From positions 1-64,000 of the forward strand of contig NZ_LT607753.1 of NCBI RefSeq assembly GCF_900090295.1: a stretch of DNA of 64,000 nucleotides. Direction: 5' to 3'. A program made the position numbers and the translations under genes. The stretch comes from Micromonospora coxensis (GTDB lineage Bacteria; Actinomycetota; Actinomycetes; Mycobacteriales; Micromonosporaceae). Below the pieces are notes generated by a model. The model was given only the letters and a program-made list of their open reading frames with translations. It was not told the DNA's origin and did not search any database. This document shows positions 1,089 through 17,586 of the stretch, piece by piece; position 1 is the first letter of the stretch, and each line of letters opens with the position of its first letter.

Positions 1089-1099
1089 TCACCACGGGC

Positions 1100-1130
1100 C
1101 TCGCGGTGGTGGTGACCCCACCACCGCGAG
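1100..1130 (+). terminator. Hairpin between the binding-protein and permease genes
   Basis: A perfect 13 bp stem (1100-1112 with 1118-1130) and a 5 nt loop lie just after the binding-protein stop and before the permease start. There is no U-tract. In sugar ABC operons such a stem often raises binding-protein mRNA over permease mRNA by partial termination or 3'-end protection; that role is inferred. Confidence 0.55.
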
Positions 1131-1150
1131 GGCCTCGGAAAGGTTGCCAG

Positions 1151-2022
1151 ATGGTTGCACTACCGGTGCGTCGCCAACGACGCGTCCGTCGTCCGTCCGC
1201 CCGGGAAGCCGGGACGGCGCTGCTGTTCGTCCTGCCGTTCCTGGTGCTGTTCGCCCTGTTCCGTTCGGGCCGGCGATCGCCGGGTGTTCCTCGGATTCAC
1301 CGACTACACCATCGGCGGGGACACCGGCCTCGTCGGCCTGGAGAACTTCCGCCGGCTGCTCGACGATCCCACGTTCTGGTCGGCGCTACGGGTGACCGTC
1401 GTGTTCACCGCGCTGTCGGTGCCCCTGTCGATGCTGCGTCGTTGGGCGTGGCCCTGCTGACCCGCCGGGTGTTCCGCGGCGTGAAGCTGTTCCGGTCGGT
1501 GTTCTTCCTGCCGGTGGTGACCAGCCTGGTGCTGGCCGGGGTGGTCTTCACCTGGGTGTTCGCCGAGGGTGGGCCCCTGGTCGCGGGCGATGGGCGCGCT
1601 GGGCCTGCCGGCCGGTTCCTGGCTGGCCGACAGTGTGCTGGTCGTCCCCGCGCTGGTGCTGGTCTCGGTCTGGTCCCGCTTCGGCTACGGCATGCTCATC
1701 CTGCTCGCCCGCCTGCAGGACATCCCCGCCGAGTTGGAGGGCGGCGCTGACCGACGGCGCCTCGGCCTGGCAGCGGTTCCGCTACGTCACGCTGCCGCAG
1801 TTGCGACCCGCGCTGTTCTTCGTGGCCGTCATCGAGACCACCGTGGCGGTGCAGGTCTTCGACATGATCTACGTGATGACCGGCGGCGGCCCGGTGCGCG
1901 CCAGCTACAGCCTGGTCTACCTCCTCTACGACCAGGGCTTCAAGTACTTCGACCTGGGCTACGCCAGCGCCATCGGGGTGGCGCTGTCGTTCGTTTTGGC
2001 CAAAGACCCTCGGGAGGGAAGA
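1151..2022 (+). pseudogene. ABC sugar transporter permease 1 (MalF/UgpA type), frame-broken and lacking its C-terminal end
   Basis: This is the first inner-membrane subunit of a carbohydrate ABC importer. ATG 1151 begins VALPVRRQRR, followed by a hydrophobic helix (LLFVLPFLVLFAL). The conserved cytoplasmic loop reads LQDIPAELE, then LTDGAS and the end region YASAIGVALSFV. About five frame breaks occur (near 1265, 1285, 1437, 1585 and 1741). After ALSFV the family normally has some 20-25 more residues and a stop. Here the frame runs straight through the next ribosome site into permease 2, so tens of bases appear to be missing. No ATPase gene follows; in actinomycetes a shared MsiK-type ATPase usually serves these permeases. 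Confidence 0.8.
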
Positions 2023-2920
2023 ATGACCGACACCGTGGCACCCCCGCCCGTCGCCGTCGTCGCCGAGGCCCCCGCCGGCGGGCGTCGACGCCCGTACCGG
2101 GTGGGTCGACCCGGCCGGAGCTGGCTCGTCACCCGTACCGTGCTGCTGCTGATCGGCGCGGCGATCACCCTGTTCCCCTTCTACGCGATGGTCGTGCTGT
2201 CGTTCAAACCGACGGCCCGGTCACCTTCCCCGACAGCCTGCTGCCCTGGCCGATCTCCACCGAGGCGTACGACCAGGTCATCGGCGCCAAGAGCGTGCTG
2301 CGCTGGATGTGGAACACCATCGTCTACTCGGTGGTGTCGGTGATCGGGGTGCTGCTGTTCGCCTCGATGGCCGGCTACGCCTTCGCCAAGAAGCGCTTCC
2401 CCGGCAAGGAGACGATGTTCTGGTCGTTCCTGGCCATGCTGATGGTGCCGTACCACGTGACCATGATCCCGACGTTCATCGTCATCTCCGAGCTGGGCGG
2501 GGTCGACACCTACTGGGGCATGATCCTGCCGACCCTGGCCAACGCCCAGGCGGTGTTCCTCATGCGACAGTTCATCGCCTCGCTGCCCGACTCACTGTTC
2601 GAGGCGGCCCGCCTCGACGGCTGCTCGAGTGGCGGGTGTACGTCTCGATCGTGCTGCCGCTGATCAAGCCGATCCTCGCCACCCTGGGCGTGTTCGTCTT
2701 CCTCTGGCACTGGAACGACTTCCTCTGGCCGCTCATCGTGGGACAGAGCCTGGACATGCGTACCCTGACCACCGGCATCGCCTCCCTGCAACAGGAGAAC
2801 GTCGCGTTGAACATGCTGCTGGCGGGCTCGGTGGTGGCCTTCGTACCGATCTTCATGGCCTACCTGATCGGGCAGCGCTACTTCCAGGAGGGCGTCGCGA
2901 CCACCGGCATCAAGGGATGA
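2023..2920 (+). pseudogene. ABC sugar transporter permease 2 (MalG/UgpE type), two frame breaks
   Basis: This is the second permease subunit, pairing with the one upstream. ATG 2023 follows a GGGAGGG ribosome site by 3-4 bases. A cytoplasmic N-terminus of about 35 residues leads into helix LLLIGAAITLFPFY. The EAA-type loop reads SLFEAARLDGCSEWR, and the protein ends VATTGIKG, typical of MalG-like proteins. The frame breaks near 2215 (KPT to DGPVT) and near 2630 (GCS to EWR); a single added base repairs each. The stop overlaps the next start (ATGA), so the dehydrogenase is translationally coupled and probably acts on the imported compound. Confidence 0.82.
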
Positions 2921-3919
2921 GCGGCACCGTCATCGCGCTGGCGGTGTCACCACAGGTGCGGCAGATGTTCCTCGACGACGCCACGGTGGCGCAGCTGGCC
3001 CGACTGGGCCGGCTGCGGGCCACCGCCCGACGCCGACGTCGGCGACCCGGCGGTACTGGCCCCGTTGCTCGCCGACGCCGACGTCGTCGTCACCGGCTGG
3101 GGCACCGCCGCGCTGACCGCCGAGCTGCTCACCGCGGCTCCCCGGCTGCGTCTGCTCGCGCACACCGGGGCCAGCGTGAAACCGTTCGTCACCCCGGCCA
3201 GCTTCGCCCGGGGCGTACGCGTCACCCAGGCCGGCGACGCGATGGCCTACGCGGGGGAGCAGGCCCTCGCGCTCACCCTCGCCCTGCTGCACCGGCTGCA
3301 CCGCTTCGACCACGCGTTGCGTACCGGGGAGGACTGGGCGACGGCGAAGGCCGCCCGCCGCGTCAGGAACTACGTGGCGCCATCGTCGGGTCGTCGGCGC
3401 GTCCCGGACCGGCCGGGCCTACCTCGAGCTGGTCCGGGCGCTCGGCGCGCGGGTGCTGGTCGCCGACCCGTACCTGTCGGCCGAGCAGGCCGATCGGCTC
3501 GGTGCGACGCGGGTCGACCTGGACGACCTGCTGGCCGGCTCGCTGGTGGTCTCCCTGCACGCGCCGGTGCTGCCGGAGACCACCGGGATGATCGGCGCGC
3601 GGGAGTTGGCCCTGCTGCCCGACGGCGCCCTGCTGGTCAACACCGCCCGCGCCGCGCTGGTCGACGAGGCCGCGCTGCTGGCCGTCCTGTCCACCGGCAG
3701 GATCGACGCGGCGTTGGACGTCTTCGACGCCGAGCCGCTGCCGGTGGACCACCCGCTGCGGGCGCTGCCGAACGTGCTGCTGACCCCGCACGAGTCGGCG
3801 GGGACGGTGCAGTCGCGGCGGCGGCCGGGGCGATCGTGGCGGCGGAGGTCGCGCGGTTCCTGCGCGGTGAGCCGCTGCGTCACGAGGTGACCCCGGACCT
3901 GCTCACCAGCACGGGATGA
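2917..3919 (+). pseudogene. D-isomer-specific 2-hydroxyacid dehydrogenase, frame-broken
   Basis: This is an NAD-dependent oxidoreductase acting on a 2-hydroxy or 2-keto acid. The start ATG 2917 overlaps the permease stop. The N-terminal substrate domain includes DADVVVTGWGTAAL. The Rossmann part reads GAIVGVVGASRTGRA once the frame is repaired. The catalytic triad typical of the family is visible: Arg in NTARAALVDE, Glu in DVFDAEPLP and His in LTPHESAGT. Breaks lie near 3015, 3358, 3390 and 3810. The stop TGA is at 3917-3919. Family assignment is firm, but the substrate is unknown; context suggests a sugar-derived acid. Confidence 0.82.
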
Positions 3920-4007
3920 CCAGCTCCCGTCACCGGCGCCGGCGCGCCTGTGGCCGTGCTGACCTGCGGTGGCGGGCCCACCGCGACACTGAGTAGCCTC
4001 TGCGATC

Positions 4008-4889
4008 ATGCGCATCGCCCTCGCCGGACTCGCCACCAGCCACCCCTACACCGACGCCCGCGCGCTGCGCGACGTCGCGCAGTTGACGGTGTGGGAGCCC
4101 GACCCGCACCGGCTGGACCGCTTCCGCGCCGAACACCCGCACGCCACGGTGCTGCCCGACCTCGACGCGCTGCTCGCCGCGGACCCGGACGGCGTGGTCC
4201 TCACCGTGCCCACCCCGGACGTGCCGCCGGCACTGGACAAGGTCCTGCACCGCGGGCTGCCGTGCTTCGTCAACAAGCCCGCCGCGGCCACCCGTGAGCA
4301 GCTCGACCAGCTGGAACGGGTGGTCTCGCGGGCGCCGGAGCTGGTGCTGACCTCCTCCGTGCTGCGCTTCGCCCCGCAGTTCGTCGCGTTCGACGTGCCG
4401 CGCGAGCAGGTGCTGGCGGTCCGGGCGACGGTGCGCCACGACGTGGGCCTGTGGGCCACCGGCTACAACCCCTGGCAGGACGACCCGGCGGTGGGCGGCG
4501 GCACCCTGGTCATGATGGGCCTGCACGGGGTGGAGCTGCTGGTGGCGTTGCTGGGTCCGGCGGTACGGCTGGTCGGCGCCGCCGGCGCGGTGCGCCGCCA
4601 CCACGGTCTGCGCTCGGAGGACACCGGCGTGCTCGCGCTGCGCTGGGACGACGGGGTGACCGGCACCGTCGAGGTGCTCGGGGTCAGCGCCGCCGAGACG
4701 TACGAGGTCACCGTGCACACGGTCGACGGAGAACGTCGGGTGCTCCTGCGTGGCGGCGCGGAGGAGCTGGGGTACCGGTCCACCGTCGAGGCGTTCGTGG
4801 CCATGGTGGGCGGCGCGCCGAGTCCGGTGCCGTGGTCGCAGACCCGCGCGGTGCTCGACGTGCTCACCTCCGCCCGGGCGCTGGCCTGA
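4008..4889 (+). CDS. Gfo/Idh/MocA-family oxidoreductase
   Basis: This intact 293-residue NAD(P)-dependent sugar or inositol dehydrogenase-like protein is the only large gene in the first 12 kb with no frame break. The N-terminal Rossmann strand is IALAGLATSHPY, so the usual GxGxxG is replaced by GLATSH. The family lysine motif appears as CFVNKPAA. The C-terminal half carries GGGTLVMMGLHGVELL, where the His lies in the usual catalytic position. It is shorter than most members (330-390 residues). The 88 bp gap from the dehydrogenase upstream has no clear terminator, so it may be in the same transcript. It probably oxidises or epimerises the imported sugar. Confidence 0.85.
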   Translation: MRIALAGLATSHPYTDARALRDVAQLTVWEPDPHRLDRFRAEHPHATVLPDLDALLAADPDGVVLTVPTPDVPPALDKVLHRGLPCFVNKPAAATREQLDQLERVVSRAPELVLTSSVLRFAPQFVAFDVPREQVLAVRATVRHDVGLWATGYNPWQDDPAVGGGTLVMMGLHGVELLVALLGPAVRLVGAAGAVRRHHGLRSEDTGVLALRWDDGVTGTVEVLGVSAAETYEVTVHTVDGERRVLLRGGAEELGYRSTVEAFVAMVGGAPSPVPWSQTRAVLDVLTSARALA

Positions 4890-4935
4890 GATCGCCCGAC
4901 GTCGCGCGCGAGGGGCGCGTCCGTAATTCACGCGC

Positions 4936-4966
4936 AGGGCCTGTCTCCCATCGGGAGGCAGGCCCT
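4936..4966 (+). terminator. Strong hairpin ending the transporter-oxidoreductase transcript
   Basis: AGGGCCTGTCTCCC (4936-4949) pairs with GGGAGGCAGGCCCT across a 3 nt loop, giving a 14 bp stem with one G-T pair. It lies between the oxidoreductase stop and the next promoter. There is no U-tract, as is common in high-GC actinomycetes. Confidence 0.7.
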
Positions 4967-4973
4967 ACGGCTC

Positions 4974-5013
4974 TTGACGCCCCCACAGACGGAAGTTACG
5001 GTCATGACCGTTA
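4974..5013 (+). promoter_or_regulatory. Promoter with an 18 bp inverted-repeat operator on its -10
   Basis: A -35 TTGACG at 4974-4979 is followed after 16 bp by TTACGGTCATGACCGTTA at 4996-5013. That element contains the perfect 14 bp palindrome ACGGTCATGACCGT and covers the -10 region, so a bound protein would repress. The same layout recurs at 8388-8427 and on the minus strand at 14081-14041. The binder is inferred to be the regulator encoded at 7147-8366. Confidence 0.65.
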
Positions 5014-5026
5014 ATCAGGAAGGGGT

Positions 5027-6046
5027 GTGGCTGTCATGCGTACGGTGGCGGAACTGGAGGAGCGGCTCTCGCGCCCGCGGGACGTCCTGGTGGACCTGCG
5101 CAAGCTCGACGGCGACATCCTCATCCTCGGGGCGGGCGGGAAACTCGGCCCGAGCCTGGTGCGGCTGGCGCTGCGCGGCGTCGCCGAGGCGGGCACCGGC
5201 GCCCGGGTGATCGCGGTGTCCCGCTTCTCCGAACCCGGACTCGCCGACGCCCTGCGCGCCCAGGGCGCGGTGATCGTCGAGGCCGACGTCGCCGACGACG
5301 CCGCCCTGGCCGCCCTGCCCGACGCGGCGAACGTGCTCTTCCTCGTCGGGGCGAAGTTCGGCACCTCCGGCCGGGAGCACGCCACCTGGGCCACCAACGC
5401 CTACCTGCCCGGGCGCGTCGCACAGCGCTTCGCCGGCTCGCGCATCGTCGCGCTGAGCACCGGCAACGTCTACCCCCTGGTGCCGGTCACCACCGGCGGC
5501 TGCGTCGAGCAGACCCCGGTACAGCCCGTCGGCGAGTACGCCATGTCCTGCCTCGGCCGCGAACGCGTGCTGAGCCACTTCAGCGTGCGCGACGACACCC
5601 CGATGGCGCTGATCCGCCTCAACTACGCCGTCGAGATGCGCTACGGCGTCCTCGTCGACGTCGCCGCCGCGGTCCTGGGCGGACACCCGATCGACCTGAC
5701 CATGGGGCACGCCAACATCGTCTGGCAGGGCTACGCCAACGAGGTCACCCTGCGCCCTGCACCACACGGCGACGCCGCCGTTCGTGTTGAACCTGACCGG
5801 CCGGAGCTGGTCTCCATCCGCCAGGTCGCCCACCGCCCTGGCCGCCGGATGGGCCGCGAGGCGCACCTCACCGGCACCGAGGCACCGACCGCGCTGCTGT
5901 CCAACGCCCAGCTCTGCCACCGGCTCTTCGGATACCCCGACGTGCCGGTCGCCGAGCTGATCGACCTGACGGCGCAGTGGGTCGCCGACGGCAATCCCCT
6001 GCTCGGCAAGCCGACCGGATTCCAGCGCCGCGACGGCAATTTCTAG
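5027..6046 (+). CDS. NAD-dependent epimerase/dehydratase-like protein (extended SDR)
   Basis: This is a probable NAD(P)-binding epimerase or dehydratase of 339 residues. GAGGKLGPS at about residue 35 is the cofactor loop, and ALSTGNVYP carries the usual Ser. The active-site Tyr sits in YAMSCLGRE, so the standard YxxxK reads YxxxC. Either the lysine was lost or the enzyme uses a different base. Between about 5755 and 5850 several compensating shifts garble roughly 30 residues without closing the frame. GTG 5027 has AGGA six bases upstream; ATG 5036 is an equal alternative. The stop is 8 bp before the next start, so the two form an operon. Confidence 0.75.
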   Translation: MAVMRTVAELEERLSRPRDVLVDLRKLDGDILILGAGGKLGPSLVRLALRGVAEAGTGARVIAVSRFSEPGLADALRAQGAVIVEADVADDAALAALPDAANVLFLVGAKFGTSGREHATWATNAYLPGRVAQRFAGSRIVALSTGNVYPLVPVTTGGCVEQTPVQPVGEYAMSCLGRERVLSHFSVRDDTPMALIRLNYAVEMRYGVLVDVAAAVLGGHPIDLTMGHANIVWQGYANEVTLRPAPHGDAAVRVEPDRPELVSIRQVAHRPGRRMGREAHLTGTEAPTALLSNAQLCHRLFGYPDVPVAELIDLTAQWVADGNPLLGKPTGFQRRDGNF

Positions 6047-6054
6047 GAGAGACC

Positions 6055-7102
6055 GTGTTGACCGCATCGGACACCCGACAGACCACCGCCCTGGCGCGGT
6101 TCGCGCGGGGCTGTGCCATTCCCGCCCACCCGCTCGCCCTCGACGCCGAGCGTCGCCTCGACGAGCGCCGGCAGCGGGCGCTGACCCGCTACTACCTCGC
6201 CTCCGGCGCCGGCGGCATCGCCGTCGGCGTGCACACCACCCAGTTCGCCATCCACGACCCCAAGGTCGGTCTGCTCGCTCCCGTGCTGGAACTGGCCGCC
6301 GAGACCGCCGCCGGCTCCGAGGCCGTCATGGTCGCCGGCGCCTGCGACACCGCCCAGGCGGTCCGCGAGGCCGAACTCGCCGCCTCGCTCGGCTACCACC
6401 TGGTGCTGCTGTCGCCGTACGCCCCGCTGGACGAGGACGCCCTGATCGAGCGGGCCCGCGCCGTCGGCGAGGTGCTGCCGGTCATCGGCTTCTACCTGCA
6501 ACCCGCCGTCGGCGGTCGGCAACTGTCCGCGGCTTCTGGGCGCGACTGGCCGCGCTGGAGTCCGTGGTCGGCATCAAGGTGGCACCCTTCGACCGCTACC
6601 GGACCCTGGACGTGCTGCACGGCGTGTGCGCCGCCGGCCGCCAGGGCGACCTGGCCCTGTACACCGGCAAACGACCACATCCTCGCCGACCTGGTCGCTC
6701 CGCACCGGGTGGTGGTGGACGGGCAGCCGGTGCAGGTGGAGTTCGTCGGCGGACTGCTCGGGCAGTGGGCCGTGTGGGCGCGCACCGCGGTGGGCCTGCT
6801 CGACGACGCCCGGGCCGCCCGCGGCGGCGACGACGCCGCGCTGCCGCCTGCTCACCCTGGACGGGCACCTCACCGACGCCAACGCCGCCATCTTCGACGC
6901 CGCGAACGGCTACCACGGTTGCATCCCCGGCATCCACGAGGTGCTGCGCCGCCAGGGGCTGCTGGCCGGCCGCTGGTGCCTCGACCCGGCCGAGGAGCTC
7001 TCGCCCGGCCAGCTCGCCGAACTCGACCGCGTCCACGCGGCGTACCCGCACCTGCGCGACGACGACTTCGTCGCCGAGCACCTGGACCAGTGGATGTCCT
7101 GA
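6055..7102 (+). pseudogene. Dihydrodipicolinate synthase-family aldolase/lyase (copy 1), frame-broken
   Basis: This is a class I aldolase or dehydratase of the DapA/NanA superfamily, which acts through a lysine Schiff base on pyruvate-like or keto-sugar substrates. GTG 6055 follows TAGGAGA. The early GARFARG-like segment is replaced by RFARGCAIPAHPL. The helper tyrosine lies in PVIGFYLQPAVGG and the Schiff-base lysine in VVGIKVAPFD. Breaks near 6525, 6668 and 6848 are each repaired by one base. At about 345 residues it is longer than DapA (about 290), with a C-terminal extension ending EHLDQWMS. Its position after the epimerase suggests it cleaves or dehydrates the product. It is unlikely to serve lysine biosynthesis. 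Confidence 0.8.
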
Positions 7103-7111
7103 CCCTGCCGG

Positions 7112-7144
7112 GGCCGGCCCGCGCCACGGGGGCGCGGGCCGGCC
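7112..7144. terminator. Bidirectional terminator between convergent genes
   Basis: A perfect 14 bp stem, GGCCGGCCCGCGCC with its complement, encloses a 5 nt loop. It lies between the lyase stop (7102) and the end of the minus-strand regulator (7147) and can serve both transcripts. Confidence 0.8.
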
Positions 7145-7146
7145 GG

Positions 7147-8366
7147 TCAGAGGGTCAGGCGGTACAGGGTCAGCGGGCGACCGCTGGTGCCGGAGGCCAG
7201 GTTGCCCAGCCGCTCGGCCAGACCCGCCAGCTCGAGGCGGTGCAGCATCCGGCGGGCCGTGCGCTGCTGCACGCTGAGATGCTCGGCCACCTCCCGGCTG
7301 GTCAGCGGCGTCTCACCGGCGGCGGCACGGACCTCGCGCAGCCGCAGCAGGGTCGGCACCGACAGGCCGACCCGCTGTGCGACAACCGCCAGATTGGCCT
7401 CGGCGGGCTGCGGCGGCGGCATCGTCGTCTCCAGCACGATGTCGGTGTCGCCGCGCAGCGACAGCACCGCCGTGGTGGGCCCGACCCGGCGGGCGCGGCT
7501 CAACGCGCGGCGGGCCAGGTTCTCCGCCTCCGCCGCGCTGCGGCCGAGCCCGAAGCCGATCTGCACCCGCTCGTGCCGGTCGGCGAGGCGGCGCAGCATC
7601 GGCAACGTGGTGAACCCCGCCGTGGCGTCGTGCAGCGGCCCGCGGGTGGTGACGATCAGGTAGGTGTCCGGTGCGAACCGCGCCAGCGTGGCACCGAGGG
7701 CGGCGACCTCCTTGAGCAGCCCGCCGTCGCCGTCGGAGAGGCTGGCCAGGCCGAGCGCGATCTGGGCGTCCTCCTGGGCCTGGCTGTCGGCGTGCAGCAG
7801 CACCTGGCGCAGCGCTGTACGCACCGAATGCGCCGACGGGGCGAGACGGTACGCCGGCATCTCGTGCCGCAGCACCTCGTAGACCGAACTGATGCAGGTG
7901 ACGGCGACCCGGGCGCCGGCGCGGTGCTGACGGCGGTGGAAGGCCACCACGTCGTCGGAGCTGAGCTGACCCCGGTACGGCAGGCAGCGCACCTGGTCGA
8001 CCGGCAGTCCCGCCTCCCCGAAGGTCGCCGCCACGTCCGCGCCGGTGACCGTGTCGATCGAGATGCGGGCCACGTCGTGCCCGTCGCGCAGCAGCCGCAC
8101 CGTGGCCTGCAGCAGCGTCGCCCCGGTGTAGTCGACGAAGGCCGCCGGACGGTGCAGGACGTTCGCCCGCCGCGCCAGGGGTGTAGGGCACCACACCGGT
8201 GAACAGCCACGCCTGCACGTGCGCGCCGTGGGCCTCCACCAGGGCCGGCGCCTGCGACTCGTGGTCGTAGTGCAGCCGCCGCACGGTGACACCCGGCTGC
8301 TCCTCGCAGGTGGCTGCCACGTCGTCGACCAGGTCGTGCGGTCCGACGACCGATCTCGATGGTCAC
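7147..8366 (-). CDS. Transcriptional regulator with C-terminal winged helix, probable regulator of the island
   Basis: This is a roughly 405-residue regulator. The N-terminal half, once two single-base insertions near 8180 and 8352 are removed, looks like a ligand-sensing alpha/beta domain (VVGPHDLVDD, ATCEEQPGVTVRRL, DVARISIDTVTG). A middle alpha/beta domain follows (VQIGFGLGRSAAEAENLARRAL). The C-terminal helix-turn-helix reads TSREVAEHLSVQQRTARRMLHRL and ends in a wing. GTG 8366 has AGGAGG six bases upstream, better than ATG 8393. I cannot name the family with confidence. It lies between two copies of the 18 bp operator, one in its divergent promoter region, so it is the natural candidate binder; an effector from the pathway is likely. 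Confidence 0.65.
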
Positions 8367-8387
8367 GCCCGGCCTCCTGTCGAAGGG

Positions 8388-8427
8388 TTGCATGTTCCGT
8401 AGCTCAAGATTACGGTCAGGCCCGGTA
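8388..8427 (+). promoter_or_regulatory. Promoter with second copy of the island operator
   Basis: TTGCAT at 8388-8393, a 16 bp spacer, then TTACGGTCAGGCCCGGTA at 8410-8427. The last element matches the 4996 site at 15 of 18 bases. It faces the aminotransferase operon and also lies upstream of the divergent regulator gene, so autoregulation is possible. Confidence 0.6.
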
Positions 8428-8450
8428 TTGGTGAAACCCCGGGAGGGTAC

Positions 8451-9619
8451 GTGTCGTTTCCCAGCATGGCCGACGCCGACGGTCGAACCCTCGGGCAGGA
8501 GGAGATCGACGGCGTCACCCGGGTGCTCCGGACGGGCATGCTCAGCTCCGTGTGGGGCACCGAGGTGCGCGCCCTGGAACGCGAGATGGCCGACCGTCAC
8601 GCAGTCTCGCACGCCGTGGCCGCCAGCTCCGGCACCGCTGCGCTGCACCTGGCCGTCGCCCCGTCGCCCCCGACCCCGGCGACGAGATCATCACCTCGCC
8701 CATCAGCGACTTCGGCACCGTCGCGCCCATCCTGGCGCAGAACGCCGTGCCGGTCTTCGCCGATGTCGACCCGTACACCGGCAATCTCGACCCCGCGGCC
8801 GTCGCCGCCGCGATCGGACCGCGCACCCGCGCGATCATCGCGGTGCACCTTCGGCGCCGCCGCCGACCTGCGCGCCGTCGCCGCCGACGCCGGTGTGCCG
8901 CTGATCGAGGACTGCGCAGGCGTGGCTCGCCCGCTATCCCGACGGCACCCTCGTCGGCACCGCCGGCGCGATCGGCTGCTTCAGCCTCCAGCAGTGGAAG
9001 CACATCACCTGTGGTGACGGAGGGCTGGCCATCACCGACGACCCGGCGCTCGCCCGGCGATGCGCCTGTTCGCCGACAAGGGCTGGCCCCGCGACGGCGG
9101 ACGCCGCCAGCACGTCGGCCTCGGCCTCAACTACCGGATGACCGAACTCGCCGGCGCCGTCGCCCGGGCTCAGCTCGCCAAACTCTCCGGCGTCCTCGCC
9201 GACCGACGCCGCACCGCGACCCGGCTGCACGCCGCCCTGTCCGACGTGCCCGGCCTGCACCTGCCCACCGACGTCGACGCGCACGCCTGGTGGCTGTTCC
9301 CGATCGTGCTGCGACCACCGCTGGACAACCGCAGCGTCGCCGCCCGTCTCGCCGCCGCCGGAATCCCCGCCCGCCCCGGCTACCTCGACCAGCCGCTGCA
9401 CTGCGCGCCCGCGCTCACCGAGGCCCCATCTACGGCAGCTCCCGCTATCCGCTCGCGGTGCCGCCCGCCGACCGGCTGCCCACCTATGGGCCGGGGCTGT
9501 GCCCGGTCGCCGAACGGCTCGTCGACTCCACCCTGCTGGTGATCGACTGGAACGAGCGCTACACCGACGCGCACGTCGACGAGATCGCCCACGCCGTCCG
9601 TGTCGCGGTGACCTCGTGA
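8451..9619 (+). pseudogene. DegT/DnrJ/EryC1/StrS-family PLP aminotransferase, frame-broken
   Basis: This is a sugar aminotransferase-type protein that would exchange an amino and a keto group on a sugar-derived substrate. GTG 8451 follows GGGAGGG. Family signs in order are SSGTAALHLAV, DVDPYTGNLDP, IEDCAQAW, the PLP lysine in SLQQWKHITCGDGG, and LGLNYRMTELAGAV. About five breaks (near 8660, 8850, 8922, 9060 and 9422) interrupt the frame, and each restores with one or two bases. The stop overlaps the next GTG start (GTGA). Most family members build amino sugars, but the neighbours here are catabolic, so the reverse (deaminating) direction is my inference. Confidence 0.82.
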
Positions 9620-10516
9620 TCGCCCCGGCCGCCGCCGCCCTGCGCGACCGGCTGCGCTGGCAGCTCGTCGCCGCTGCCGCGACCCCCATGGACGCCACCG
9701 GCGCCACCGACCCCGCGCTGTGCCGGCGGTACCTTGCGCGGCCTGCTCACCGACGGCGCCGACGCCCTCGCCGTCCTCGCCCACACCGGCCGCGGCCCAC
9801 ACCTCGACGCCGGCCACCCGCGACGTGGATCACCGGCTTGCGCGGTCGACACCGGCGTGCCGGTGATCGTCGGCGTGGGCGGCCCGGCCGGGGGAGCACA
9901 CCGACCAGGTCGCCACCGAGGCCGCCCGGGCCGCCAGCCTCGGCGCCGCCGGCGTGCTGCTCTTCCCCGTCGACGGCGACCCGCTCGCCCACCACGACGC
10001 GATCTGGCAGGCCTCGGGACTGCCCATGCTCGCCTTCGACCTGTACCTGCGGCCCTACCGCCCGGCCCACCTCACCGCCCTGCTCACCACCCCGGCGTCG
10101 CCGGCGTCAAGGTCGCCCGGCTGCACGACGCGATGGCCTGCCAGGCCACCCTCGCCGCCGCCCACGCCGCCGACCGCCTCGCCGTCACCGGCGAGGACCG
10201 CATGTTCGGGCCGTCGCTGATGTGGGGCGCCCAGGCCGCCCTGGTCGGTCTCGCCGCCGCCGCGGTGCCCGTCGCCGCCACCGTGCTGCGTGCCTTCGCC
10301 GAGCAGCGCTACGCCGACTTCGTCGCCGCCTCCGCGCGCCTGGACCGGCTCGCCGAGGTGACCTTCACCGAGCCCATGGAGGGCTACGTGCGTCGCATGC
10401 TCTGGATCGCCGCCGACGAGGGCCGCATCCCGCCCGGCTACGCCGTCGACCCGTACGGCCCGGCGCTGACCGAGGACGACCGTGCCCGGGTGCTGGCCGT
10501 GGCGAGGCGAGCGTGA
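9616..10516 (+). pseudogene. Dihydrodipicolinate synthase-family aldolase/lyase (copy 2), frame-broken
   Basis: This is a second DapA-superfamily protein of about 300 residues. Visible parts are TPMDATG near the N terminus, ALAVLAHTGRG, DTGVPVIVGVGG, AAGVLLFPVDGDPLAHHDAI, and the Schiff-base lysine in VAGVKVARLHDA. GEDRMFGPSLMWGAQA is the expected GxD-type loop. Breaks occur near 9731, 9815, 9888 and 10092. The start GTG 9616 overlaps the aminotransferase stop, and its own stop overlaps the next start, so four genes here are translationally coupled. Two lyases of one family in one island imply two carbon-carbon or dehydration steps, or a hetero-oligomer. Confidence 0.8.
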
Positions 10517-11249
10517 ACCCGTTCGTCGCCGGCGACCTGCCGGCGGTCACCCTCGACGTCGACGTGCTGGTCGGACGGCCACCCCGACCGACCCGGGTCC
10601 CGACGCAGACACACGCCAGGTCATCGCCGCGCTGTCCACCCACGGCATCGCCCGGGCGGCCGTGGCCAGCCTGCGCGCCGCCCTGTTCGACGTCGCCGAC
10701 GGCAACGACGAGGCCGCGGCCCTCGCCGGGCCCCGCGTGCTCCCGGTCGGCGCAGTCGACCTGCGGGACCCGCTCGGCGCCGAGCGGGAGATCGACCGGC
10801 TGGCCGAGCGGGGCGTACGCGCCGTGCGGCTCTTCCCCGACGAGCAACGGGTCGAGGCGGACTTCCCGTCGGTACGGCACGTGGCCCGCCGCGCCGCCCG
10901 GGCCGGCCTGGTGATCCTCGCCGGCGGCGACGTGCGCCGCTTCTGGCGCCCACTGCGCGGCACGACCGTCGTCTTCCTCGACACGCACTTCTACCACCTG
11001 GGCGACTTCGTGGTCGCCGCCCGCGACGAACCGGGCTTCCACACCTCGACCCGCCTGCTCAACTCTCCCGACGCGTTGGAGACCGTCGCGGAGCACCTGG
11101 GCGTCGACCGTCTGCTCTACGGCTCCCGCACCCCCTGGTACGAGGCCGTCGTACCCCGGCTGCGGCTGGCCCGCAGCGGCCTCACGCCGGACCAGGTCGC
11201 CGCCGTGGCCGGCGGCAACGCCCACCGGATCCTGGAGCCGCCGGCATGA
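10513..11249 (+). CDS. Amidohydrolase_2-like protein lacking the HxH metal motif
   Basis: This TIM-barrel protein of about 245 residues is related to its downstream neighbour. GTG 10513 overlaps the preceding stop. One or two frame breaks lie near 10580, within the first 30 codons; the rest is open. Where the neighbour has IIDVHAHWG, this protein has a VTLDVDVLVG-type start, so the two metal histidines are absent. The late Asp of the family (FGTDATL in the neighbour) is replaced at YGSRTPW. His in FYHLGDF remains. Loss of several metal ligands suggests a non-catalytic partner of the next gene, with which it is coupled by an ATGA overlap. Alternatively it could use a different chemistry. Confidence 0.72.
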
Positions 11250-11981
11250 TCATCGACGTGCACGCCCACTGGGGGCCGTGGTTCTTCAGCATGCAGGTCG
11301 GCGACCTCGCCACCAACCTCGCCGTCATGGACCGCTACGGCATCGACCTCGCCGTCGTCTCGGCCACCGAGGCGGTGATCTACGACGTGACCGCCGGCAA
11401 CCGGGCGATGGCCCGCACGCTGGAGGACAGCGACCGGCTGCTCGGCTACCTCACGGTCAACCCGCGCCGGCTCGACGACGCCGAACGCGACCTGCGGGAG
11501 CTGCTGCCCACGGGCCGATTCGTCGGGGTGAAGATCCACACCGACTACACGGGGTCCCCGGTGGCCTCCCCCCAGACCCGGGCGGCCCTGGAGCTGGTCG
11601 CCGCGCACGACCTGCCCGCCCTGGTGCACACCTGGGACGCCACCCCGCTGGACCTGGCCCAGGCCTGCGCCGACATCCCCCGGCTGCGGGCCATCGCGGG
11701 CCACATGGGCGCCAACGGGTGGCGCCATGCCGTCGAGGCCGCGAACGCGGTGGACAACCTCTGGCTCGAACCCTGCTTCTCCCACACCGAGGCCGGACGC
11801 TTCGCCGCGGTCGCGGCGGCCGTCGACCCCCGGCGGCTGCTGTTCGGCACCGACGCCACCCTCATCGACCCGGCCGCCGCCTACGGGGCCGTGCTCGCCG
11901 CCGACCTCGACCCCGAGCTGGCCGAGCGGGTCGCCTGGCCGCAACGCCGCCGACCTGTTCCGGCTCGACGTCGACGGCTGA
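11246..11981 (+). CDS. Amidohydrolase_2-family metal-dependent hydrolase or decarboxylase
   Basis: This is a TIM-barrel metalloenzyme of the COG2159 type, which hydrolyses lactones or amides or decarboxylates acids. All key residues can be seen: HAH at the N-terminal strand (DVHAHWG), Lys or His in GVKIHTDY, His in ALVHTWDA, His in IAGHMGANG, and Asp in LLFGTDATL. ATG 11246 overlaps the previous stop. A single frame break near 11940 sends the reading past the natural end (NAADLFRLDVDG, stop 11979-11981) into the opposite-strand gene. Context suggests hydrolysis of a lactone or acylated intermediate late in the pathway. Confidence 0.82.
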
Positions 11982-11987
11982 CCCCGA

Positions 11988-12038
11988 CCCCCGCGCACAC
12001 GACGCGGGGGCCGCCTCCCGAACCGGGAAGCGGCCCCC
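11988..12038. terminator. Double hairpin between convergent transcripts
   Basis: CCCCCGCG (11988-11995) pairs with CGCGGGGG (12003-12010). Overlapping it, a 15 base arm at 12006-12020 pairs with 12024-12038 with one mismatch. The two stems are mutually exclusive and suit termination in either direction. Confidence 0.75.
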
Positions 12039-12057
12039 GCCGTCGTACGCCCGCCGA

Positions 12058-14016
12058 CTACTTCTTCGGCAGCGGGAACCGGGCCAGGTCGTTGCCGAGC
12101 ATGCCCCAGGTGGCCCTGCCGTCCGGGGTGAAGTGGAACGACGGGTTGTTGTACCAGCCGCGCGGCACGTTGTCGTACAGCACGGTGGTCTCGCCGCCGG
12201 GCACCGTCGGCAGCTCGCAGATGTCGTTGGTCCAGTGCACCCAGGAGAACACCCGACCGTCGACCCCGTTGAACTGGCCGTAGCCGCCCAGGTCGCCCTC
12301 CATCACGATCCTGCGGGTGTGCAGGTCGTAGGCGAACCACGCGCCGCGCGGGCGGCGACCCATGGCGTACAGCAGGTTGCCCACCACGTGCAGGCTCTCG
12401 TACGACAGCCAGTCCGGCTTGATCTCCTCGCGCCACAGCAGCTGCCGGGTGACGATGTCGACGGCCGCCACCTGCGCGACCTTGCGGATCGGGCCGCTGG
12501 TGCCCTCACCGTAGGTGTCACCGGCGAGGTACGCGGTGGTGCCCTGCACCACGACGTCCATCACGCTCTGCTCGGGCAGGAACTCCCGGTGCGTGTCGAA
12601 GCTGTTGTCGGTCAGGTCGATGAAGGTCAGCGCGCCGGTGTGCCTGGTGGTCTGCGGGCTGGAGGCCACGATCAGCTGGTTGCGGGGCTTGTCGTGGTGG
12701 ATCCGCTTGGTGCGCAGCTGCTCGTTGCCGAGCAGCCCGAGCACCGTGACGTCGAAGCTGTCCGGGTCGACCGACACGATCTGCGTGCTCGGGTACAGGC
12801 CGGCGTACACGACACCGGCCTTGCCCTCGGCCATCGCCTTGACCTCACCGTTGATGTCGAAACGGTCGCTCGTGCCGGCCTCCGGCCGGTGCACCGTCAT
12901 CGCGTAGTGCCCGCCCACCCAGATCGTGTTGCGGGTGTGCCGCATCATCGACTGGATCGTCTCCGGGTAGCCGAAGCCGCGGGTGGCCGTCTGCCACACG
13001 GTCGCCGCGCCGCCCGGGGTCGCCTTCCACACGTGCCCGAGCCCGGTCACCCCGAGCAGCGCGCCACCGGGCAGCGGCGCGAGCAACTGGTTCTCCACGT
13101 TGGCCAGGGGCTGTCCCACCTTGGCCAGGCCGTCGGCCGTCACCTCGTACAGGTTGGTGGTCAGCCGGCACAGCGCGTACACGGTGCCGTCGCTGCCGAC
13201 CGTCAGCTGGTCGATGTAGCGGTCCTCGGCCGGGATGTCGCGCGACACCCGGCCGGAGCCGTCCGGAGCGAAGGAGATCAGCTGCCGGCCGCAGGCCACG
13301 TAGACGACACCGTCGTGGACCAGCATGTCGAGGATGCCGACGGGGGAGGAGCTCAGGTACGACGTCAGGTTGGTCGGCGCTCCGCCGGCCTTCGGCCACC
13401 TCAGCAGGGTGCCGGGGGCGGCCGACCCGCCGTAGACGTACTCGTCGTCGACCGCCACGGCCGCCGCGTACTGGGAGGTGGAGATCCGGCCGTACGTCTC
13501 GACGCTGCCGTCGGCCAGTCGGATCCGCTTGACCGTGCAGTCCGGGTACGTGCCGATGTACAGGTGCTCCCCGTGCACCACCATGTCGTAGTACCAGGTG
13601 GTGGCCCCGCCGGCTCGGGACCAGGCCACGACCTCACGGCTCTGCGGATCGTAGCGGTAGACGTACGCGCTGCCGGCCGGACCGAGGTAGACGTAGCGCC
13701 CATCTGCCGCCGCCTTCTGACCGCCGTTGCTCGGGATCGGCAGATCGACGATCGCGCGGTTCTCACCGGTGTGCACGTCGAACTCGCCCAGACGCATCCT
13801 GCCCTCAGGGGTGTTGAACCGCGAGGTGATGAAGACGCTGTCGCCGATGACGGCGGCGCCACGGACCGCAGCGGTCAATGAGGCCGGTCCGAAACTGGTC
13901 GGCGTGAGAGCGTCCTCCGCTGCGGACGCCGGCGCGAGGAACGTGCCCTGCCCGACTGCCAGGGCCGCTCCGGTGGCGGCGCTACCCGCGAGAAGTGTGC
14001 GTCGGCTCAGGGGCAT
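12058..14016 (-). CDS. Tat-exported beta-propeller protein (PQQ/WD-like repeats)
   Basis: This is a secreted protein of about 652 residues with no recognisable catalytic motif. The second in-frame ATG (14016) is preferred because GGAG lies seven bases upstream. It gives MPLSRRTLLAGSAATG, a twin-arginine signal cut after ASA near residue 33. The remainder is about a dozen blade-like repeats with GDSVFITSRF, DGRYVYLGPAGSAYVYRYD, HGEHLYIGTYPD, DGTVYALCRLTTNLYEV and DLHTRRIVMEGDLGGYG, ending LARFPLPKK. Oligogalacturonide lyases are also propellers, but I see no matching active site. Its promoter carries the island operator, so it is probably co-regulated with uptake and may bind or process the polymer outside the cell. 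Confidence 0.75.
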   Translation of the reverse strand: MPLSRRTLLAGSAATGAALAVGQGTFLAPASAAEDALTPTSFGPASLTAAVRGAAVIGDSVFITSRFNTPEGRMRLGEFDVHTGENRAIVDLPIPSNGGQKAAADGRYVYLGPAGSAYVYRYDPQSREVVAWSRAGGATTWYYDMVVHGEHLYIGTYPDCTVKRIRLADGSVETYGRISTSQYAAAVAVDDEYVYGGSAAPGTLLRWPKAGGAPTNLTSYLSSSPVGILDMLVHDGVVYVACGRQLISFAPDGSGRVSRDIPAEDRYIDQLTVGSDGTVYALCRLTTNLYEVTADGLAKVGQPLANVENQLLAPLPGGALLGVTGLGHVWKATPGGAATVWQTATRGFGYPETIQSMMRHTRNTIWVGGHYAMTVHRPEAGTSDRFDINGEVKAMAEGKAGVVYAGLYPSTQIVSVDPDSFDVTVLGLLGNEQLRTKRIHHDKPRNQLIVASSPQTTRHTGALTFIDLTDNSFDTHREFLPEQSVMDVVVQGTTAYLAGDTYGEGTSGPIRKVAQVAAVDIVTRQLLWREEIKPDWLSYESLHVVGNLLYAMGRRPRGAWFAYDLHTRRIVMEGDLGGYGQFNGVDGRVFSWVHWTNDICELPTVPGGETTVLYDNVPRGWYNNPSFHFTPDGRATWGMLGNDLARFPLPKK

Positions 14017-14040
14017 CAGCATCTCCGTTCGTCAGCATCA

Positions 14041-14081
14041 TTACGGCCCGGACCTTAATCGGGGGGCTCGGGATGCGTCAA
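14041..14081 (-). promoter_or_regulatory. Promoter with third copy of the island operator
   Basis: On the minus strand TTGACG (14081-14076), a 17 bp spacer and TTAAGGTCCGGGCCGTAA (14058-14041) reproduce the layout at 4974-5013. The element matches each of the other two copies at 13 of 18 bases and is itself an imperfect inverted repeat. Transcription would start about 30 bases before ATG 14016. Confidence 0.55.
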
Positions 14082-14433
14082 GGGTGCGGGCGGCTCCGCG
14101 TCCATGCCGGACACACCGCGCCGACGTGCTGCCCGACGCGCTCGCGGCCGGCTGGCCGTCGTCGATGAGGGCGGGGTGGTCCGCCTGTCGTCCCGGCCGC
14201 TCGGACGGCCCGGCGTGCCGGCGGAGCGCGCGGTCGGTGACGACGTCGTGCGGCGTCCACACGTCGCTGGCGGCCGGCGACGGGTCGCGCGTACAGGCCG
14301 AGGGGCGGGGCGTCGTGGAGGACGGCCCCGCCCCTCGGTTGCGGTGCGGATCGGTGGCGGCGGCGTACGTCGATGCCGGACGGGCCGCTGCTTCCCGGCA
14401 GGCCCCGGGCCTACGGACGGTGCCGCTGCGCTG
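14082..14433. other. Gene-free stretch with pectate lyase terminator
   Basis: Short open frames here lack ribosome sites and recognisable similarity. The only feature I see is a hairpin at 14298-14338. Confidence 0.5.
14298..14338 (-). terminator. Hairpin downstream of the pectate lyase
   Basis: A perfect 14 bp stem (CCGAGGGGCGGGGC with its complement) and a 13 nt loop lie about 95 bases beyond the lyase stop on the minus strand. Confidence 0.7.
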
Positions 14434-16026
14434 CTACCCGGCGTACGTCTCGAACTCGGCGACCTTCGGCGTGCCGTTCGAGCTGTTGATCTTGAAGGTG
14501 ATCTTGGTCAGTGAGGTCCGGGGGATGCCGATGACGCCCGCGCCGCTGCCGGAGGCCAGGACGGCGCCGGTGTTGTAGTTGATGACCTGCCAGGATCCGA
14601 TGGAGCCCTGGGTGCCCGACGGTTCACGGATGGCCACCGTGGAGACCGTGGTGGCCGAGCCCCACTTGATCGAGACGGAACCGGTCGCGCCCGCCGGCGA
14701 CCAGTAGGTGCTCAGGTTGCCGTCGCGCACGTTGCCGTAGCTCGTCCCGTCGGCCTTGCTGGAACCGTCGGAGCCCGCCCCGATGCTGAGGTTGGTCCCA
14801 CCGGGCTGGGTCGGGCCCGGCGTGGGGCTGGTCGGCGCCGGGGTGGGGGTGGTCGGTGCCGGCGTGGGACTGGTCGGACCCGGGGTGGGGCTGGTCGGTC
14901 CCGCCGTCGGCGACTGCGGCGTGCAGTTGCCGTCCGACACCTGCAGGCCCTTGTTGGCGCCGGCGGTCTGACTGACGACGCTCGGCACGCAGTTGGCCGC
15001 GTCGAGGCGGTAGGTGTAGGGGATGCTGACGGTGGTGTTGGACTGCGGGTTGGGGCCGGCGGGGTTGTTCTCGCTGCTGCGGCTGGACCAGGTCACGTTG
15101 TCGAAGGTGTTGCCGCTGACCTGCCAGTAGCCGGCTTCGCTGGTGTAGAAGGTGCCCAGGACGTCCTTGGAGTCCTTGAAGTAGTTGTTGTCGACCTTGG
15201 CCTTGGCGCCGGCGCGGGAGTTGATGCCGGACTCGTGCAGGCCCACGTAGTGGTTGTTGTAGATGTGGGCGATGCCGCCGCGCAGCAGGGGCGTGCGGGA
15301 GTCGATGTTCTGGTACAGGTTGTGGTGGAAGGTGACGTAGCCGTTGGAGCGGTCGCTCTCGCTGGAGCCGATGAGTCCGCCCCGGCCGGAGTTGCGCAGG
15401 ATGCTGTAGGACAGCGTCACGTACTGGGTGTTGTCCTTCATGTCGAAGAGGCCGTCGAAGCCTTCGGACTCCCCGCCCGAGGCCTCCAGGGTGACGTGGT
15501 CGACCCAGACGTTACGGACGTTGCTCTCCATGCCGATGGCGTCACCGCCGTTGGACGTGGGCGAGCCGGACTTCTTGACGTTGCGGACGGTCACGTTCTG
15601 GATGACGATGTTGCGCGAGTCGCGGATGTGGATGCCCAGCTGGTCGAAGACCGCCCCGCTGCCGACGCCGATGATCGAGACGTTGCTGATCTGCTTCAGC
15701 TCGATCACGCCGTCCGCGGTGCTGCAGCTTCCGCCCGACACCTTGCTGGTGTTGCCGTGGTTGATGGTCCCCTCGACCTGGATGATGATCGGGGTGCTGC
15801 TGCTGGCCCGATTGCACAGGGCCGCGTGGATCTGGGTCCCCGTGGTGGCGCGCACCGTCTGCCCGCCGGCGCCACCGGTCGTCCCACCGTTCTGCGTCGC
15901 GAAGCCGGTGGCGCTGCCGACCGCTGCCGATGCCTGCGGCGCCGCCAGGGCCACTACTGCGATCACGCCTCCGATGGCCGTCGTGGCCAGCGCCGCCTGG
16001 AGTCCTCGTACGACTGGTCGTCTCAT
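14434..16026 (-). CDS. Secreted PL1-type pectate lyase with C-terminal carbohydrate-binding domain
   Basis: This enzyme cleaves polygalacturonate outside the cell by beta-elimination. A Sec signal (RRPVVRGLQAALATT, cut after ASA near residue 34) leads into a right-handed beta-helix domain of about 340 residues. Landmarks are DGVIELKQISNVSIIG, NVWVDHVTLEASGG (the vWiDH signature) and SRTPLLRGG, where the second Arg is the likely catalytic base. A 40-residue Pro/Thr linker (repeats of PTSPTPGPT) joins a discoidin-like (F5/8C) module with NVRDGNLSTYWSP. ATG 16026 has AGTAGG upstream. It reads against the neighbouring island and has its own operator about 350 bp upstream. Confidence 0.9.
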   Translation of the reverse strand: MRRPVVRGLQAALATTAIGGVIAVVALAAPQASAAVGSATGFATQNGGTTGGAGGQTVRATTGTQIHAALCNRASSSTPIIIQVEGTINHGNTSKVSGGSCSTADGVIELKQISNVSIIGVGSGAVFDQLGIHIRDSRNIVIQNVTVRNVKKSGSPTSNGGDAIGMESNVRNVWVDHVTLEASGGESEGFDGLFDMKDNTQYVTLSYSILRNSGRGGLIGSSESDRSNGYVTFHHNLYQNIDSRTPLLRGGIAHIYNNHYVGLHESGINSRAGAKAKVDNNYFKDSKDVLGTFYTSEAGYWQVSGNTFDNVTWSSRSSENNPAGPNPQSNTTVSIPYTYRLDAANCVPSVVSQTAGANKGLQVSDGNCTPQSPTAGPTSPTPGPTSPTPAPTTPTPAPTSPTPGPTQPGGTNLSIGAGSDGSSKADGTSYGNVRDGNLSTYWSPAGATGSVSIKWGSATTVSTVAIREPSGTQGSIGSWQVINYNTGAVLASGSGAGVIGIPRTSLTKITFKINSSNGTPKVAEFETYAG

Positions 16027-16731
16027 TCGGTCCTACTCTCTGAACTGCGGTGGTGGTGGTGCCCGAGGTGGTCGTCCGGGCAGGCCGTCGAGCTGTCGCC
16101 TGCCGCCGGACAGGTCGCTGCTCGACGCGAGGTGGTGCTCTTCACGGTGTCGATCGGCGGTGGCGCTGCAGTCGTGCCGACCTGCGCGGACGCCTGCCCG
16201 CGACGTCCCCGTAACCGTGAGCCGTCCACTGCTGCGGGTCGTGTCGCCACCGACGGCCGGAGTCGTCGGCCGAGGCGTGCGCCGCGAGGCACTGCCACCT
16301 CGCGGCGCGGACACCGGACACCCGAGGTCAGTGTGGATGCCCCGATGGTCGCCTCCGCCGGGACGTTCCACCTCGCTCTGGAAAGCGCTTTCCGAGCCGA
16401 GGATAGGGAGGTGTCTATGGGTGTGGCAAGGGGCTGTCCGGATTGCGGTACAAGGTTGCTTTGTTCCTCGCTACCGGTAGCTGCGGCACAGCGATCGGTG
16501 GCCGCGCGGTGCGCGGCGAGGTGAGGTCGACCAAGCTCGGCGGGCGGATGATCCGAGCGACCCGCTGCTCCCACACCGGCTGCCCATGGCGGTGACGCTC
16601 CCACCGGCCGGCGTTCGAATCCGCCCTGGTGGGGTCCGCTACCCTGCTCGTCTGCCGTCGGAGGACGGCTCGAGCTTGTCGTGCACTCCCTGTGCGGGTC
16701 GCGACCTTCACGGTCATCTGAGGAGGAACCC
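16027..16731. other. 705 bp gene-free interval
   Basis: No convincing gene is seen. The interval holds the pectate lyase promoter and operator (16380-16429) and a long presumed leader (16027-16380). Near 16608 is a T-loop-like TTCGAATCC, but no tRNA can be folded around it. Confidence 0.5.
16380..16429 (-). promoter_or_regulatory. Promoter with LacI-type operator for the pectate lyase
   Basis: The perfect palindrome GGAAAGCGCTTTCC (16380-16393) has the CG-centred form typical of LacI-family sites. Upstream on the minus strand lie TTGCCA (16429-16424), an 18 bp spacer and TATCCT (16405-16400), which places the operator at the start point. The leader to ATG 16026 would be about 360 nt. No LacI gene is in the window. 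Confidence 0.6.
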
Positions 16732-17481
16732 TTGACGGAACCGCAGCCGCGGGCGATCGACAGTTGGCAGAGGGCTGAGTCGAACGCAGCGGAGTGGATG
16801 CGGTACTGGGGCTTCAGTGATGCGAGGACCACCGAGGGCGGCGCCGACTCCGGCGTGGACGTCTGGTCACGCCGAGCGCTCGCCCAGGTGAAGTTCGAAG
16901 CGGTGCAGATCGGTCGCCCCGTGTTGCAGCGCCTGGTCGGCGCCCGGGGGCGCGACATCGAGAAAGCCCTGTTCGCCTTCTCCGGCGCCGGATTCTCCTC
17001 GCACGCCGTCGAGTACGCGAATGACATGGACATCTGTCTGTTCAAGTACACGCTCTCGGGTGCGATGGCACCCGAGAACGCCGTCGCCCACGCCTTCCTG
17101 CAACGGCTCGACGCTCAGCGGCTCGCGACCGGACGGACACGCGCCGCCACGGGTGGTGATGCGGAGTACGGAGACCCTGCGGCGCGAGCAGTCGTGTTGG
17201 CACAGGTGGCGACCGGACTGAGGGCTGTAGCGGCGAAGCGGTCGGCCGGGGAGGCGGAGAAGCCCGAATCCCCGGGACGGGGCCGATTGGGGTGCGGCAT
17301 TGTGCTCCTGCTGACGTGGGTCTGCCTGGCGGTCAAACTGGGGTCGTTCGGCAACAAGATCGTCATGGCGGTGTGGATCGGTGTGTCCCTCGCGCTGATC
17401 GTTTCGGGGATCGTCGCCTCGTCGCCCGGGGTCCCCGAGGAGGAATCTCCGGAGTCGGCTCATCCAGGGGTGCGGCAGTAG
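16732..17481 (+). CDS. Mrr-like restriction endonuclease domain protein with C-terminal membrane helices
   Basis: This 249-residue protein has a PD-(D/E)xK nuclease fold of the Mrr_cat group at residues 10-120. The core reads GGADSGVDVWSRRALAQVKF, where Asp and the QVK strand are the metal-binding pair, followed by IGRPVLQRLVGARG and ALFAFSGAGFSSHAVEYA. Two hydrophobic helices (about 183-203 and 208-228, CGIVLLLTWVCLAVKLG and IVMAVWIGVSLALIVSGIV) anchor the C terminus. TTG 16732 follows GAGGAGGA at a good distance. Mrr enzymes cut modified DNA, and the membrane anchor suggests sensing of incoming DNA. There is no methylase next to it, so it would act alone. Confidence 0.8.
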   Translation: MTEPQPRAIDSWQRAESNAAEWMRYWGFSDARTTEGGADSGVDVWSRRALAQVKFEAVQIGRPVLQRLVGARGRDIEKALFAFSGAGFSSHAVEYANDMDICLFKYTLSGAMAPENAVAHAFLQRLDAQRLATGRTRAATGGDAEYGDPAARAVVLAQVATGLRAVAAKRSAGEAEKPESPGRGRLGCGIVLLLTWVCLAVKLGSFGNKIVMAVWIGVSLALIVSGIVASSPGVPEEESPESAHPGVRQ

Positions 17482-17586
17482 CCCCGATGCGGTGGGCGCG
17501 GCCACCGGAGCAGGCGTGACACGGGCCGGGGACCACCCGGGTGCCCCGGGCGCCGCCGCTCGCCGGCCCTCGCCGGCGGGCTGAGG

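Follow-up and report, generated by a model that had tools for sequence, protein, structure and literature searches.

A palindromic operator on at least five promoters of a sugar-type gene island in Micromonospora coxensis, and its probable repressor

Sugar-operon regulons of actinomycetes under LacI- or GntR-type control have palindromic operators on their importer and catabolic promoters. Regulators of the PucR/CdaR type carry a C-terminal helix-turn-helix (HTH). Inverted-repeat sites are described for some members of the PucR/CdaR family, and the studied PucR regulators listed in the same account are activators, except for PucR of B. subtilis, which acts both ways (PMC7652997). Here, we analyzed a 64,000-nucleotide stretch of Micromonospora coxensis DNA (positions 1–64,000 of contig NZ_LT607753.1, assembly GCF_900090295.1), hereafter the window, in which an 18-bp palindrome recurs on the promoters of a sugar-type gene island. 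Palindromic operators on sugar regulons are familiar as such, and like those of the LacI/GntR-type regulons the present one lies on the core promoters of catabolic genes and of an ABC importer of sugar type. Our comparisons make it highly probable that these sites serve a single regulon as operators; most likely, the product of a gene within the island (7147–8366, minus strand) binds them as a repressor.

Three promoter-operators were found in the window by direct reading of the sequence. On the plus strand, promoter-operator 1 (4974–5013) consists of a −35 hexamer TTGACG (4974–4979), a gap of 16 bp, and the operator TTACGGTCATGACCGTTA (4996–5013). Promoter-operator 2 (8388–8427, plus strand), located where the regulator and aminotransferase genes diverge, has the hexamer TTGCAT (8388–8393), again a gap of 16 bp, and the operator TTACGGTCAGGCCCGGTA (8410–8427). 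Promoter-operator 3 (14041–14081), on the minus strand upstream of the gene encoding exported beta-propeller 1, has TTGACG at 14081–14076 followed, after 17 bp, by TTAAGGTCCGGGCCGTAA (14058–14041). These coordinates, hexamers, and spacers are as given in a preliminary description of this DNA, and so are the identities between the sites (15/18 for the first two, 13/18 for the third with each of them), which we counted by eye. The same description placed the repeat on the −10 element. The operators do cover the −10, but its exact position was one base off. Moved one base rightward, the −10 elements read TACGGT, TACGGT, and TAAGGT, with spacers of 17, 17, and 18 bp, a reading that we prefer because it fits the TAnnnT rule for actinomycete −10 elements. 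In promoter 1, TACGGT occupies 4997–5002, inside the operator.

Three promoters proved too low a count: the sites number at least five, and two of them lie immediately beyond the window's left edge. They can be read because the chromosome contig, whose circular overlap was left untrimmed, repeats window positions 57–18,038 at its end (bases 6,751,662–6,769,693, 99.5% identity). This repeat supplies the DNA preceding the window (L005) and the genes in a second copy (L006). A fourth operator, TTACGGTCCGGGCCGATA (L005 19735–19752), lies upstream of the importer's solute-binding gene, so that the importer, previously proposed to belong to the same regulon, has an operator of its own just outside the window. 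The fifth, TTACGGTCCCGCCCGTTA (L005 16241–16258), lies upstream of a second beta-propeller gene, whose product has a twin-arginine motif by eye. A strict palindrome scan of the whole genome finds, second-copy matches aside, four distinct places only, all within ∼18 kb, and the strict scan with the reversed control gave no match in this genome.

Could these sites be a chance resemblance among promoter sequences? Within the window, the pattern TTAMGGYCNNGRCCKTAA has three matches at ≤3 mismatches versus 0.69 expected, a number reached by 2 of 100 shuffles, which makes the in-window enrichment marginal, suggestive rather than strong. Genome-wide, the same search counts against the sites, with 78 matches versus 77 for the reversed control, i.e. 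no enrichment. Two places with 2 mismatches, at 4276013 and 6434719, lie outside the island among the matches listed for this looser pattern. Operator 2 taken alone is indistinguishable from chance because it needs 3 mismatches to match the pattern. Its support comes from conservation and not from its own letters, as Micromonospora relatives have a near-identical operator at the same place.

The evidence that carries the case is comparative. With the regulator as bait, a species-level collection yielded 299 confirmed stretches, of which we kept the best 80 as named loci (L082–L161). They come from Micromonospora, Plantactinospora, Rugosimonospora, Hamadaea, Virgisporangium, Nonomuraea, Streptosporangium, Pseudonocardia, Actinophytocola, Jiangella, Kribbella, a Microbacterium metagenome-assembled genome, and others. 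For each gene, the best match per locus was retained if it had ≥35% identity, started within the first 60 residues, and had ≥150 bp of upstream DNA, and sites were counted at ≤3 mismatches in up to 300 bp upstream; this left out L115 and L139 of the 60 loci with the epimerase gene epi, and L145 and L148–L150 of the 54 with the solute-binding gene sbp. An operator precedes epi in 57 of 58 testable loci, always at ≤2 mismatches, and sbp in 50 of 50, just seven of them at ≤2 mismatches. It precedes the aminotransferase gene degT in 36 of 70, an underestimate because the upstream slice stops where some sites overlap the start of the match, and the amidohydrolase gene amh1 in 24 of 51. Operators are absent ahead of the internal genes permA, permB, and amh2 (0/54 each), and the counts for dhdps1, dhdps2, and hacid are 1/59, 5/55, and 1/10. 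Among the loci left out, L139 has a perfect site ahead of an epimerase piece. Orthologues of beta-propeller 1 are preceded by an operator in L052, L082, L083, L086, L164, L169, and L203–L205. Where gene order is rearranged, the operator travels with its gene, as seen for sbp in L065/L090 (one genome) and for degT in L074, L075, and L077. Operators thus stand ahead of the orthologues of each unit across many actinomycete genera, as the one-regulon reading of the preliminary description required.

Permuted controls also count against a chance resemblance. The real palindrome has 46, 57, and 74 sites at 0, 1, and 2 mismatches in the 80 loci, whereas 60 permuted palindromes average 0, 0.07, and 1.5 (maximum 0, 2, and 12). 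At epi promoters, the distance between the end of a TTGAC/TTGC-type −35 and the operator is 16 or 17 bp (12 and 61 instances, respectively, in 75 sites); some genomes enter this count twice, since ten of the L052–L078 loci share genomes with L082–L161 loci. L079–L081 were dropped before both counts. Taken together with the remote sites described below, these comparisons make a strong case for real sites, and a chance origin is hardly credible.

The palindrome also predicts regulon genes at a distance. From the strict-scan matches listed, we hand-picked sites in regulator-bearing genomes that lie at a distance from the island or on different contigs, not taking sites in or near islands already included, two further epi sites (G299 C13:2030 and G094 C489:8043), or genomes lacking the regulator, except for L178. 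Of these remote or split-off places, chosen by motif, 22 of 26 are at regulon genes, mostly propellers: 13 of 13 in a first set (L162–L171, L177, L179, and L181) and 9 of 13 in a second (L194–L206). All 22 lie at propeller genes except L206, where a separate contig carries an epi locus, and sbp is present as well in L167, L177, and L181. The operator is also usable as a search key that locates genes for exported propellers at a distance from the island, and it can tie proteins of no assigned role to the pathway before its substrate is named.

Next to operator 2 is the candidate regulator gene already put forward in the preliminary description, and its co-occurrence with the sites backs that proposal. 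A match of some kind is present in 101 of 300 genomes of the family, with ≥43% identity in 27 by our own tally, the window's own genome included (in G019 the match is split over contigs). Thirty-five genomes have an epi match at E ≤ 1e-60. Counting from the matches listed, a strict site was found in 24 of the 26 that have the regulator at ≥43% identity versus 0 of the 9 that do not (Fisher p 8e-7). In G150 (L172 9500–13600), where epi and aldolase 1 are kept at 87–88% identity, a 28-residue remnant of the regulator remains and no operator is found upstream.

Several observations pull the other way. The p value is too small because related genomes are not independent. In eight of the nine regulator-less genomes the epimerase is just 53–67% identical; those examined in L173, L176, and L180 (and the second copies in L174 and L175) lie in other operons, and four of the nine genomes carry a ∼33% regulator paralogue. 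G150 is the sole close epi orthologue with a regulator remnant, and its upstream DNA itself looks replaced, with an ABC ATPase-like gene there by eye. A strict match occurs in 34 of 273 family genomes without the regulator, which approximates the reversed control (30/300 genomes, our count). L115 has no site ahead of its epimerase pieces, and four of the 26 remote places (L196, L200, L201, and L202) have no regulon gene. Lastly, some regulators stand without sites, i.e. the orthologues in L137, L143, and L161 (61–67% identity; no near site at ≤2 mismatches and no near core operon), in L070 (none at ≤3 mismatches), and those of G005, G035, and G086 (no strict site), and a perfect site also occurs where no regulator was found (G110; L178, with no regulon gene there).

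These last two points would also suit a regulon bound by another DNA-binding protein encoded elsewhere, with the adjacent gene a mere fellow traveller. We consider this quite improbable, since site presence and absence follow the adjacent regulator, whose divergent intergenic region itself contains one site. In addition, a scan of 20 other neighbour proteins, covering part of the loci, found DNA-binding regulator domains in single loci only, AraC-type in L059 and LuxR-type in L139.

The regulator (406 aa in L006) has an architecture that differs from each of the closest described systems. In the predicted model, the N terminus adopts a PrpR-like sensor fold, residues 202–319 form a cyclase/GGDEF-like domain, and residues 324–404 form a winged helix, with the HTH at about residues 340–390 in Pfam matches. 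The sensor fold resembles those of the propionate catabolism regulator PrpR (PDB 2pju) and an NtrC-family protein (2q5c) at 8–13% identity. The AAA+ sigma-54 domain of PrpR/NtrC-type activators is absent, as the other domains leave no room for it in 406 aa. LacI-family proteins have an N-terminal HTH, and GntR/FadR-family proteins an N-terminal winged helix, whereas it is C-terminal here (PF00392 matches the first member at E 0.082, below cut-off). The layout of sensor, GGDEF-like domain, and C-terminal HTH, along with catabolic targets, is shared with PucR/CdaR-type regulators. However, the sensor fold differs, and the HTH matches HTH_23/MarR/IclR-like models among the matches listed. No PucR-type sensor or C-terminal PucR HTH was found among the 25 of 57 Pfam families listed for 37 members (E ≤ 1), or among 17 Pfam families for the first member.

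This likeness bears on the direction of control. The regulator might be an activator or a dual regulator, the behaviour described for most PucR/CdaR-type proteins that have a GGDEF-like domain, and its middle domain is of the kind found in the PucR-type activators of the account cited above (PMC7652997). We regard this as unlikely. The operator covers the −10 ahead of epi at a near-fixed spacing, a position at which binding would obstruct RNA polymerase, and the sensor fold and winged-helix matches are unlike those of PucR. Repression is likely because the sites cover the −10, and this position is a further difference from PucR/CdaR-type control. We infer that the regulator would bind the palindrome (consensus TTACGGTCnnGACCGTAA) as a dimer via its C-terminal winged helix, occupy the −10 region, and keep at least five transcripts repressed, namely those for the epimerase and aldolase; for the aminotransferase, aldolase, and amidohydrolases; for the importer; for exported propeller 1; and for exported propeller 2. 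The repressor would be released when its PrpR-like sensor binds a compound of the pathway, probably an intermediate that is a sugar acid or keto acid. Regulator paralogues of ∼30% identity are found in other gene settings (L182–L193), which suggests a wider family with its own operators.

The genes of the island are described below in window coordinates, on the plus strand unless stated. Several of those in the first 12 kb are frameshifted in the window, whereas the genes for the epimerase, aldolase 1, the regulator, and the aminotransferase are open in L006. The two copies of the 18-kb repeat differ by 2 mismatches and 60 gaps, and the frameshifts are probably due to sequencing error. The solute-binding gene sbp enters the window with its 3′ part (1–1088; start at about −149, operator at about −209 to −192); its orthologue in L052 (81% identical) matches SBP_bac_1 (E 5e-33). 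It is followed by two ABC permease genes, permA and permB (1150–2920, BPD_transp_1, frameshifted but readable in L006), a gene of the 2-hydroxyacid dehydrogenase family, hacid (3026–3919, frameshifted; PF02826 on L006 3004–3903), and a Gfo/Idh/MocA oxidoreductase gene (4008–4889, Pfam match). A second Gfo/Idh oxidoreductase gene is divergent from sbp, and no importer ATPase was found among the island genes scanned. After operator 1, the first gene is epi (5027–6046, NAD-dependent epimerase/dehydratase family, PF01370), followed by dhdps1 (6055–7102, PF00701, frameshifted), which encodes aldolase 1 of the DHDPS/N-acetylneuraminate-lyase superfamily; it has a weak sequence match to N-acetylneuraminate lyases, and by eye what we take to be the catalytic Lys/Tyr. 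The regulator gene (7147–8366, minus strand, frameshifted) separates this unit from degT (8451–9619, frameshifted; DegT/DnrJ/EryC1/StrS-type pyridoxal phosphate aminotransferase, Pfam E 7.3e-83 on the L006 copy), dhdps2 (9616–10516, aldolase 2, same superfamily by Pfam), amh1 (10513–11249, amidohydrolase-like protein 1, PF04909 E 4.5e-9, or 2e-9 on L006 10516–11250), and amh2 (11246–11981, PF04909). Exported beta-propeller 1 (prop1, 12058–14022, minus strand) is a 654-aa protein, probably made of two propellers according to its predicted fold (model pLDDT 88.7). Its putative export signal is a twin-arginine motif by eye, with the Tat model PF10518 at E 0.001, below that model's cut-off; among 31 aligned propellers, 10 have a PF10518 match at E ≤ 0.01.

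The regulon thus contains a binding protein, two permeases, two Gfo/Idh oxidoreductases, a 2-hydroxyacid dehydrogenase, an epimerase-family protein, two aldolases, a DegT aminotransferase, two amidohydrolases, and exported propellers. In other loci, an AXE1 esterase, a short epimerase-family protein, and heparinase II/III-like and sulfatase-like proteins lie beside the sites or the locus. This gene set fits the breakdown of an acidic, substituted, possibly amino-bearing glycan, and the regulon would import and degrade a sugar or glycan fragment that is oxidised or aminated. For the substrate, the wording of the preliminary description, an unknown sugar derivative, stands as an honest statement. 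The aminotransferase clearly belongs to its family, in which the nearest solved sequences are 8gyh and 1b9i/1b9h (3-amino-5-hydroxybenzoate synthase). Here, the enzyme is part of an import/degradation regulon and falls below the cut-off of every NCBIfam model matched.

Literature searches, with most subscription literature outside their scope, found no report of this regulator architecture, operator, or propeller-rich regulon. Tentatively, two things may be undescribed: a regulator family that joins a PrpR-like sensor to a degenerate cyclase/GGDEF-like domain and a C-terminal winged helix, and the system under its control for the catabolism of a glycan that is acidic or aminated. The exported double propellers, with several paralogues per genome under their own operators, may form a new class of glycan-binding or -cleaving proteins. 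For a pathway shared by many soil actinomycetes, the outcome is a regulon defined by sequence, with an operator open to test and a candidate regulator that falls in no curated family. Inducer screening with an operator reporter could reveal the substrate.

Other genes lie near the island or resemble its parts. A pectate lyase gene (PF00544, 14434–16026) adjoins the island, with no operator upstream in the window scan. L173, L174, and L176 contain a paralogous import-epimerase-aldolase-dehydrogenase operon (epi 56–57% identity) with no adjoining regulator and no operator. Further amidohydrolase and DegT homologues (∼26–39% identity) are present beside the first set in e.g. L113, L116, L131, L136, L141, L144, and L145.
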